64,000 nt of DNA, taken from Acetobacter conturbans. GTDB lineage: Bacteria; Pseudomonadota; Alphaproteobacteria; Acetobacterales; Acetobacteraceae. A model generated the notes under the pieces. It did no database searches and was not told the origin of the DNA. It was given only the letters and a program-made list of their open reading frames with translations. Shown here piece by piece: positions 31,915 through 36,924 of this stretch (positions within the stretch are counted from its first letter, which is position 1; each line of letters opens with the position of its first letter). Where the stretch lies: positions 1-64,000 of the forward strand of contig NZ_WOSY01000001.1 in the NCBI RefSeq assembly GCF_011516755.1. Direction: 5' to 3'. The position numbers and the translations under genes are program-made.

Positions 31915-31928
<14 letters not shown>
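31356..31928 (-). CDS. GNAT-family N-acetyltransferase
   Basis: A 190-residue protein with the acetyl-CoA-binding signature [23 protein letters not shown] (Q/RxxGxG/A type) at about residues 114-136. [10 protein letters not shown] forms the beta strand before it, and [23 protein letters not shown] closes the fold. The substrate cannot be predicted. It starts 14 bases inside the 3' end of rpoD and shares its terminator, so it is probably cotranscribed with the housekeeping sigma factor gene. Confidence 0.8.
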
Positions 31929-33900
<1,972 letters not shown>

Positions 33901-34071: not shown

Positions 34072-36420
34072 TTACACAGTCCCGTCTTCCATTCGCCGCA
34101 GCGCGGTCAGTGCGTCGATTCGGGACTTAAGCCTGTCCCATTCGTTCGGGTCCATCCCGTTGCGTATCCAGAGGTCGCTGTCGCGGGCGACGTCGGCCTC
34201 GAATTCGGCTCGGTTGAGTTTTGCATAAAAATGCCACCATTGCATCTCCGGCGGTTCATCCGGGGCGGCGGGGTCGATGGGGCGGTTGGCAGCCGGGGCG
34301 CAGGCCGTGCGGATGATGAGGGCTGCGTGTGCGGCGAGGCTCTGTCCGCTGAAAGTTTGACCATTGAAGCTCTGACCGCGGGCGCTAGGGCCGCCGGTGG
34401 TGTTCTGGCTGGCCGGGTTCTGACCTGTATCGCTCTGACCGGGGTCACTGTGGGCCGAGATGCTTTGGCCGGTGATGTTGTGGCGGGCGCTGGTGCTGCT
34501 TTGGCCCGGGACACTTTGGTCGGTGATGTGGTGGGCGGGGTGACTCTGGCTGGGGGTGCTTTGGCTCGGGACACTCTGGCCGGTGATGCGGTGGCCGGGG
34601 TGACTCTGGTTGGGGGTGCCTTGACCCGGGACACTCTGGGCAGCAACGCCTTGGATGGGGGGATGCTGGCTGGAGGCGCCTTGACCCGGGACACTCTGGG
34701 CGGCGACGCCTTGGTGGATGGGGGGATGCTGGCTGGTGATGCCTTGGGCGGGGACGCTCTGGCCGGTGATCGCTTGGGTGGGGACGTTCTGGTTGGGGAT
34801 AGGTTGGCCGCTGATGCTTTGGGTGGCGAGGACCTGCATGAGGCGGATGTGCATGTCCTCGGAGTTGAAGCGGCCTTCGCGGTCGAGGTCCTCGCTGGTG
34901 AAGTCGATGATGGCGGCGCGGAGGGCGGCGAGGTCTTCGGGGAGCTGGAGGCGGCACCATGCGTCGCCGATGCGCTCGGCCAGCCAGGGGAAGCGGAGGA
35001 CGAGGTCGGTGAGTTTTTCGAGGCTGGCGCGGTCGCCATTGAAGGGGGTGGTGTCGCGTCCGCCGAGGCTGACGTTGGTTGTGGGAGGTGCTGGCCCCCT
35101 GCCCTTGCCTTTGCCGCCGGAGAAGGGTGTGCGGTTGCCTCTATAGGTTCGGAAGAACTGGTCGAGGAGAGTTGAGCGGTATTCCGAGGCGAGGGTTTTG
35201 TCCTCGATCTTCGTGGCGGCCTGTGTGAGGCGGCTGCGCAGGGCTGCACGCTGTTCCGGCGTAGGTTGTGGGGGTGTGCCTTCGGCGAGGAGGTCGAAGA
35301 GCATCTCGGCCAGCGGGCGGGCCTGAGCGAAGAGGGTGGCGACGGCCTCTCGTCCGCGATGCTGGAGGAGGCTGTCGGGGTCCTCGCCTTCGGGGAGGAG
35401 GCAGATGCGGAGGCCGCGGTCGGCGGAGATGAGGGGCAGTGCGGTTTCGGCGGCGCGGATGGCGGCGCGGCGGCCGGCGGGGTCACCGTCGAAGCAGAGG
35501 ATGGGCGACGGGGTAGCCTGCCAGAGGATTTCGAGCTGCTCGGGGGTCATGGCCGTGCCGAGGGGGGCGACGGCGCCGGGGAAGCCTGCCTGATGGAGGG
35601 CGATGACGTCCATGTAGCCTTCGACGACCAGGGCATCCACGGGGGGCGCATCTTTCGGGCGTGCAGCGCGGAGGGCGGGTCGGGCGCGGTCGAAGCCGAA
35701 CAGGAGGCGGCGCTTGGAGTAGAGCGCGGTTTCGGGGCCGTTGAGGTATTTGGGCTGGCCGTCGCCGAGGATACGGCCGCCGAAGGAGACGAGGTCGCCC
35801 CGGCGGTCGCGGATGGGGAAGGTCACGCGGTTCCAGAACAGTTCGCCTTTGGGGCGGCCGTCCTCGTCGAGGCGCATGAGTCCGGCTTCGGCCATGGCCT
35901 CGGGGGGGATGCCCTGTGGCTTGAGGGCATCGACGAGGGCGTTGCGGCGGTCGCTGGCCCAGCCGAGTCCGAAGGCTGTGATGGTGTCGTCGGTGAGGCC
36001 GCGTCGGCGGAGGTAATCCAGTCCGGCGCGTCCGGCGGGCTGGCGCAGGTCGTGGGTGTAGATGCGCTGGGCGGCTTCGAGCACGTCGCCGAGGGTTTTC
36101 TGGCGGGCGGCTTCCTCGCGGGCTTTCGGGCTGGGTTTGGGAACGACGAGTCCGGCTTCGGCGGCGAGGGTTTCGACGGCTTCGGGGAAGGCTTTGCCTT
36201 CGATCTGCATGACGAAGGAGATGGCGTCGCCGTGCGCGCCGCATCCGAAACAGTGGAAATGGTCGTCATAGACGTAGAAGGACGGGGTTTTCTCGCCGTG
36301 GAAGGGGCAGCACCCCTTCCAGTTGCGTCCTGAGCGCGCGAGCTTGACGCGGCGACCGATCAGCGGCGCGAGCGGGGTTCTCGCGCGGAGTTCGTCAAGG
36401 AAGGCGGCGTCAAGGCTCAT
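34072..36420 (-). CDS. dnaG: DNA primase with Q/S/P-rich repeat insert
   Basis: DnaG makes RNA primers for replication. The zinc ribbon has Cys38, His41, Cys57 and Cys60 ([22 protein letters not shown]). The toprim catalytic core has VVEGYMD at 266-271 and [10 protein letters not shown] at 311-320. The C-terminal helicase-binding domain (from about 465) is split: after residue 533 comes about 160 residues of degenerate repeats rich in Gln, Ser, Pro and Gly ([15 protein letters not shown] types; bases 34333-34821). The conserved ending then resumes with [20 protein letters not shown]. At 782 residues it is much longer than the usual 600-650. It is followed by rpoD. Confidence 0.95.
34333..34821 (-). 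repeat. Degenerate repeat tract inside dnaG
   Basis: The plus strand shows many variants of GGGACACTCTGG, GGTGATG and GGGGTGACTCTGG over about 490 bases. Some longer units are nearly identical, for example around 34624-34660 and 34683-34720, which both encode QSVPGQGxxxQxHPP-like segments. Units are multiples of three, so the reading frame stays open. The encoded chain looks flexible and unstructured. The array could grow or shrink by slippage or recombination without breaking the gene. Confidence 0.85.
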
Positions 36421-36462: not shown

Positions 36463-36924
36463 TCAGGCGCTGAGGGCGGCCTTGACGAGACCGTTGGCGC
36501 GGCCCAGGTCGAGGGAGGCGCCGAATTTGGATTTCAGGGCGCCCATGACCTTGCCCATGTCCTTCATGGTGGTGGCGCCGCTGTCCGCGATAGCGGTTTT
36601 GACGGCGGCTTCGAGGGCGGCTTCGTCCATTTCCGGCGGCAGGAATTCGCGGATGATGGCGATTTCGGCCTCTTCCTTGGCGGCGAGTTCCTCGCGTCCG
36701 CCTTCGCGGTACATTTTCACGGACTCCTGACGGGATTTGACCATGCCGCGGAGGGCGGAGGTGATGTCATCATCGTTGAGGGCGTCCTTGCCCTGTCCGC
36801 GCGCGGCGATGTCCGCGTCTTTTACTTTGGCGCCGATCATGCGGAGGGTGGTGACGCGCTCTTTCTCGCCGGCCTTCATGGCGGTCTTGGTGTCTTCGGT
36901 GAGGCGGGTGCGGATGTTGGTCAT
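36463..36924 (-). CDS. yqeY: GatB/YqeY-domain protein
   Basis: A 153-residue protein of the YqeY family, related to the tail domain of the GatB amidotransferase subunit. It begins with a helix typical of the family (IRTRLTEDTKTAMKAGEKERVTTLRMIGAKVKD). It contains KSRQESVKMYREGGREELAAKEEAEIAIIREFLP, and ends KDMGKVMGALKSKFGASLDLGRANGLVKAAL. Its biochemical role is unclear; it may act on tRNA-related substrates. It lies just upstream of dnaG and rpoD, its usual place in alphaproteobacteria. Confidence 0.92.
   Translation of the reverse strand: MTNIRTRLTEDTKTAMKAGEKERVTTLRMIGAKVKDADIAARGQGKDALNDDDITSALRGMVKSRQESVKMYREGGREELAAKEEAEIAIIREFLPPEMDEAALEAAVKTAIADSGATTMKDMGKVMGALKSKFGASLDLGRANGLVKAALSA

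Follow-up and report, generated by a model that had tools for sequence, protein, structure and literature searches.

An in-frame repeat tract in the predicted helicase-binding domain of the DnaG primase of Acetobacter conturbans

INTRODUCTION

The C-terminal domain of bacterial DnaG primases is described in a review as a C1 bundle followed by a C2 hairpin, and it mediates the interaction with DnaB (PMC6163395). In E. coli DnaG, the pocket for the tail of the single-stranded DNA-binding protein (SSB) is described as involving K447, R452, K518, T450, M451, I455, and L519 (PMC5872125; also PMC6163395), and N511 is likewise named among the residues forming it (PMC5872125). SSB itself is listed among bacterial proteins with low-complexity regions (PMC6821194), and the word primase is absent from the main text of that article. 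Among the open-licence PMC matches listed, no title or abstract opening dealt with a repeat tract in DnaG.

Here, we show that dnaG of A. conturbans, located in a stretch of 64,000 nucleotides that was analyzed as a whole (the window), carries an in-frame coding minisatellite, and that structural models place this tract inside the C1 bundle. In our judgement, a core replication enzyme is not expected to have large repeat insertions in a docking domain that is folded.

RESULTS

The locus comprises the following features.

34072-36420, minus strand: dnaG, 782 aa (open reading frame; TIGR01391 match)
35158-36411, minus strand: zinc-ribbon and catalytic (TOPRIM) core of DnaG (position of the TIGR01391 match; Pfam domains)
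34813-35040, minus strand: predicted C1 helices 1-4 in the helicase-binding domain, residues 461-536 (AlphaFold2 model; VIA-align to 2r6a_C)
34330-34824, minus strand: repeat tract, residues 533-697 (TRF, shuffles, exact repeats; without counterpart in relatives)
34492-34764, minus strand: 60-bp higher-order repeats, residues 553-643 (TRF; exact repeats of up to 24 bp; copy comparison)
34300-34347, minus strand: predicted helix 5 of C1, residues 692-707, resuming at the tract end (AlphaFold2 model; alignment with tractless relatives)
34087-34251, minus strand: conserved helix and predicted C-terminal helical hairpin (C2-like), residues 724-778 (model; sister identity)

The 782-aa protein is a DnaG, scoring 408.9 bits against TIGR01391 (cut-off, 283.6), and the zinc-ribbon, DNAG_N, and Toprim domains of the primase core were all detected in it above the curated Pfam cut-offs. 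It was the single DnaG match of its own genome in both the genus and the class survey, and among the 80 named loci kept, the DnaG of A. fallax had the highest identity to it (71%). The DnaB of the same genome is a 510-aa frame. PF08278 (DnaG_DnaB_bind) matched nowhere in the genome; since this search matched only 2 of 14 control genomes, the absence of a match does not exclude a DnaG, but it indicates that the helicase-binding domain is divergent in sequence. This C-terminal domain, with its C1 bundle and C2 hairpin, was recognized by predicted fold only.

Downstream of dnaG lies a gene that we take, from its sequence, to be rpoD (31915-33900). It has tandem repeats of its own, with units of 9 to 15 bp, at 33231-33294 and 33574-33615, in low-complexity, partly acidic stretches. 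The GC skew changes sign near 33 kb, being negative in each 2-kb block from 14 to 32 kb and positive from 32 to 64 kb, and low-GC stretches at 14-18, 26-28, and 30-32 kb adjoin this change. It is possible that the skew change marks the boundary of an island or of an inversion beside rpoD and dnaG.

The original prediction, made from the nucleotide sequence, was that about 160 residues of degenerate repeats interrupt DnaG at 34333-34821 (minus strand; residues 534-696 of the 782-aa frame), that the repeats come in multiples of three bases with some units nearly identical, and that the conserved end of the protein resumes behind them. All of this was borne out. The tract comprises about 165 residues and is built of a degenerate 15-bp unit, mostly encoding a small residue followed by Q-[S/G/N]-x-[P/T/S/A], with 60-bp super-repeats superimposed. 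Thirty units could be phased with some breaks, most of them reading [G/A/S/N/T]-Q-[S/G/N]-x-[P/T/S/A]. Of the 166 positions at residues 533-698, Q and S occupy 27 each, G occupies 20, and P occupies 19. TRF reported a 60-bp unit in 4.7 copies with 80% matches over 34489-34770; the score of 271 was the highest of 46 rows in the 64-kb window. It also read a 30-bp unit over 34492-34792, with 62% matches. Self-identity of the array DNA was 0.564 at lag 60, 0.538 at lag 30, and 0.528 at lag 15, all above the maximum of 0.465 that 2000 codon shuffles reached at any lag below 130. Every exact repeat of at least 12 bp within the array (7 of 7; 34336-34812) occurred at a lag divisible by 3. The longest, at lag 60, measured 24 bp, so that 60-bp copies are exactly identical over up to this length, and in the window flanks the longest exact repeats at lags below 200 were 12 and 13 bp. 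Behind the tract, residues 698-782 continue in frame and are 68-70% identical to their counterparts in five sister species, whose DnaG proteins are 155-161 residues shorter. With head-to-tail copies above chance that preserve the reading frame, the array is confirmed as a real in-frame coding minisatellite.

The position of the tract within the fold was addressed with AlphaFold2 models. The model of residues 430-782 (mean pLDDT, 63.8) has helices at residues 461-476, 480-490, 495-511, and 520-536 before the tract and at residues 692-707, 724-735, 737-754, and 758-778 after it. Over residues 550-689, block pLDDT values of about 38-45 predict a probably disordered tract. The tractless domain of A. 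fallax, modeled as a control (mean pLDDT, 85.6), has helix 4 at its residues 91-104 and helix 5 at 108-118, both with pLDDT above 90. Only three residues separate these two helices in the control, which points to this turn as the insertion point. Accordingly placed by the models, the tract would lie inside C1, between helices 4 and 5. The model keeps C1 folded around the loop, but helix 5 after the tract has block pLDDT values of only about 59-70 versus the values above 90 in the control, so that an undisturbed C1 is predicted with no more than moderate confidence.

Structural comparison by VIA-align related both models to 2r6a chain C, which we take to be the DnaG (P16) domain of Bst; its row says just "Crystal Form BH1". 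The control aligned with residues 456-553 of this chain (Z, 9.5; 98 residues; rmsd, 2.9), and the alignment of the window model with residues 455-553 bridged the tract (Z, 7.5; 99 residues; rmsd, 3.7); such Z values are middling for helical bundles. This was the top row for the window model, and 1z8s, named in its row as a Bst DnaG domain, ranked second with a Z of 5.4 and an rmsd of 11.4. Foldseek returned nothing at an E value of 0.001 or below for either model. Its rows for the window model were weak, with 2r6a_C at rank 8, and the control had a C-terminal domain of DnaG, 6cbs_A, as its best row (E, 0.17). When solved structures were searched with a profile, no match fell below an E value of 0.077. 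The alignment of the flanking helices with the DnaG chain of a DnaB complex agrees with the original prediction that the tract lies in the helicase-binding part. In the model, the tract does not connect the catalytic part to the helicase-binding one; it forms a loop that emerges from a tight turn of C1.

The tract looks private to one species among those examined, each of which was represented by one genome. At the tract site, 7-11 residues were found in all 37 aligned relatives (DnaG of 595-632 aa) versus 165 in the 782-aa window protein. Of these relatives, 29 are congeners and 8 are named Acetobacteraceae. Two of the latter also belong to Acetobacter; A. fallax is counted in both sets, and its DnaG is identical to that of genome G009. 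In a second alignment, 79 of the 80 named loci, all with a complete C-terminus, had 4-12 residues at the site versus 166 in the window protein; the count excludes one cut-off locus (L071). The genus set consists of 49 genomes including the own one. One had no DnaG match (G035). For the 18 congeners beyond the 29 aligned, only the length of the frame was considered: 17 have frames of 609-657 aa, too short to contain the tract, and one has a split frame (G027). In the family survey, a DnaG match was obtained in 134 of 140 genomes, own included; ten others with broken or cut frames were left out, and no other carrier was detected among the 123 judged. Forty of the longer frames, including every one of the 23 main matches that reached 700 aa, were retrieved and gave DnaG proteins of 583-691 aa, and the rest were judged by frames shorter than 700 aa. 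A match was present in 103 of the 106 genomes of the class survey, own included; two cut frames (G227 and G208) were left out, and no other carrier was found among the 100 judged. Five of these had frames that reached 700 aa, which on retrieval proved to be DnaG proteins of 612-669 aa, and the remainder had shorter frames. The sets overlap, and the expectation that such a tract is unusual in DnaG fits the lack of a second carrier in the genus, named-locus, family, and class sets. A different arrangement was seen in one member of the family (locus L168, genome G055), whose DnaG has low-complexity additions of its own: RPGSA-like repeats precede the helicase-binding domain, and an AAGPN-like tail follows it.

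A source or second copy of the array was sought at several levels. In the own genome, no second array was found at the DNA level (best other match, E 0.136), and the best other protein match (E, 0.043) lay in a frame with three stops. Plasmids and phages gave no array match at an E value of 1e-5. No array source was found in the 49 genus genomes, own included, with the first 13 candidates per genome scored in most genomes; 13 other genus genomes showed matches of 21-43 bases to the array (best E, 0.0015), which we take as chance. The linker of the genome's own SSB was considered as a template and rejected, as it is glycine-rich and not Q/S/P-rich. In the five sister species, the turn itself reads xQGLS, which resembles the tract unit. 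When a matrix built from the inner units is used for scoring, this block ranks 3, 11, 12, 7, and 6 of 617-623 in-frame 15-mers at the DNA level and just 5, 16, 16, 17, and 16 at the amino acid level. The five sisters are related and not independent, so the evidence that the seed was local is modest.

All 30 units keep C and A as the first two bases of the glutamine codon, and the third base is A in 13, G in 14, and C in 3, so that the encoded residue is Q in 27 units and H in 3. At a lag of four units, none of 28 comparisons differed at these C and A bases versus 28 of 112 at the other first and second positions; the rough chance of such a difference, 0.0003, is only a guide, because the phase was set in part by the glutamine and the copies are not independent. 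The glutamine pattern thus appears unusually preserved for a freely drifting sequence and would be compatible with a function. Hand alignment of five 60-bp copies (10 pairs) gave proportions of nonsynonymous differences of 0.11-0.38 and of synonymous differences of 0.08-0.44, which suggests little overall constraint on the encoded protein. For the region behind the tract, comparison with the sisters gave a pN of 0.17-0.19 and a pS of 0.69-0.83, the latter inflated by an opposite third-base strand bias of the own gene and those of the sisters; as synonymous proportions above 0.75 versus the C-terminal part of the sisters reflect this bias, no dates were drawn from them. Third bases of the window dnaG are C-rich throughout, and those of the sister genes (L082-L086) turn G/T-rich in the C-terminal part.

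The C-terminal part of DnaG is also divergent outside the tract. Identity to the sisters is 92-93% over residues 1-430, 64-67% over residues 431-532, and 68-70% over residues 698-782, with the drop beginning near residues 400-420, versus 93-98%, 85-96%, and 85-100% in the same three parts among the sisters themselves (10 pairs). As the sisters resemble each other and the own C-terminal part is far from all of them, the whole of this part may have another history. The adjacent part of rpoD (about 340-357 residues compared) sets the species apart as well, with identities of 0.88-0.89 versus 0.92-0.99 among the sisters, which would allow that the catalytic part is the recombinant piece, or merely slow. 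For the upstream gene (36463-36924), the separation is weaker (0.82-0.85 versus 0.85-0.98). One part of dnaG, either the catalytic or the C-terminal one, may have undergone recombination.

DISCUSSION

Our analysis identified a coding minisatellite in an essential replication gene. The best explanation, which we hold to be somewhat probable, is that it arose by tandem duplication in place, at the turn between helices 4 and 5 of C1, and that the resulting loop is tolerated and mostly drifting. A codon block of the sister-type xQGLS kind, for which the evidence is modest, may have served as the seed in the lineage of this species. Slippage or unequal recombination would have copied it into 15-, 30-, and then 60-bp units, adding about 155-161 nearly uncharged, Q/S/G/P-rich, and probably disordered residues, and purifying selection on this single-copy essential gene would have eliminated frame-breaking changes. 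The loop is predicted to leave C1 and the C-terminal hairpin folded, although helix 5 is modeled with only moderate confidence, and as both stay folded in the model, DnaB binding probably persists. With the exception of the unit glutamines, the tract sequence may mostly drift, and the array can probably still change its length by whole units.

A selected function of the repeats, unlikely in our estimate but with a real chance of being right, would be in line with the preserved glutamines. The pentad loop would then act as a tether or sticker that extends from C1 at the border of the SSB-tail-binding region of E. coli DnaG, and weak multivalent contacts of its evenly spaced glutamines would tune the stay of primase at the fork. 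Q or H in 30 of 30 units, encoded by two invariant bases followed by a free third one, is consistent with this view, as is the placement of the turn near the SSB-tail pocket, at about residues 508-513 of E. coli DnaG. We infer this placement from the match of residues 35-120 of the control to 1t3w 448-525 (E. coli) and from an hhalign alignment with E. coli DnaG that is itself weak (probability, 4.4; E, 0.0093). Against it, the tract occurs in none of the relatives examined, the copies show no overall depression of nonsynonymous change, the glutamine itself was used to phase the nonindependent units, no Pfam family matches the tract, and the own SSB linker is of a different composition. The more specific proposition that about 30 glutamine-anchored pentads lie near the SSB-tail pocket and that their number sets primase dwell and Okazaki fragment length is distinctly doubtful; if true, the pentad array would be a recently evolved, selected, and tunable setting in an essential replisome contact. 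Quite improbable, in turn, is an import: the repeat would have arisen earlier in an unsampled relative, and homologous recombination would have brought in the C-terminal part from there, whether or not the tract came with it. The fall in identity from 92-93% to 64-70% past the catalytic part, seen next to sisters that are mutually 85-100% identical, would be expected from such an event, but rpoD also distinguishes the species, the outgroup L087 is at about the same distance from the own C-terminal part and from those of the sisters, with a difference at residues 421-460 alone (0.35 versus 0.48), and neither the genome nor the genus, plasmids, or phages offered a source of the array.

Assembly errors at tandem repeats are documented (PMC6868369), and the genome is a draft of 88 contigs; an artefact or a mis-sized array is nevertheless very improbable, since exact repeats are short, with well-diverged copies and none longer than 24 bp, and the tract sits 34 kb deep in a contig of 484,470 bases. 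The frame is, moreover, kept throughout. Coding sense elsewhere, with the array serving the opposite strand or acting as DNA or RNA itself, strikes us as extremely improbable. The plus strand is open through the array, inside a 926-aa ORF with a pentapeptide-like look, but neither this frame nor the three minus-strand frames matched a Pfam family, and it is the DnaG frame that is conserved on both sides of the array. The RNA folds no better than shuffled sequences (z, 1.13; 88 of 100 shuffles fold as well).

The loop, then, is real and most likely tolerated. It is worth testing because it sits in the helicase-docking part. If primase works normally with the loop, the helix 4-5 turn of C1 would be a natural permissive site and would reveal how much stretching the primase-helicase module allows. 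Should the array alter contacts with DnaB or SSB, the number of units would provide a natural handle on the priming rate.

Several known systems resemble the tract in part. Its five-residue period recalls pentapeptide repeat proteins; this family was rejected, as no Pfam family was found at E values up to 1 in the four frames open over the array (the DnaG frame, the plus-strand frame, and two other minus-strand frames). E. coli SSB has a disordered low-complexity linker, and the tract is likewise a low-complexity chain in a replication protein. Unlike that linker, it is an internal loop and not a tail, and the SSB of the own genome lacks the Q pentad. With bacterial intragenic tandem repeats and low-complexity regions, the tract shares an in-frame short-unit array that is probably disordered and lineage-specific; it differs in its location within a folded interaction domain, which belongs to a core replication enzyme present in single copy. 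There is also a likeness to bacterial DnaG itself, as represented by Bst P16 (2r6a and 1z8s) and E. coli (1t3w), in the TIGR01391 core and the predicted C1 bundle, from which the window DnaG differs by its divergent domain sequence and by the 155-161 extra residues in the helix 4-5 turn.
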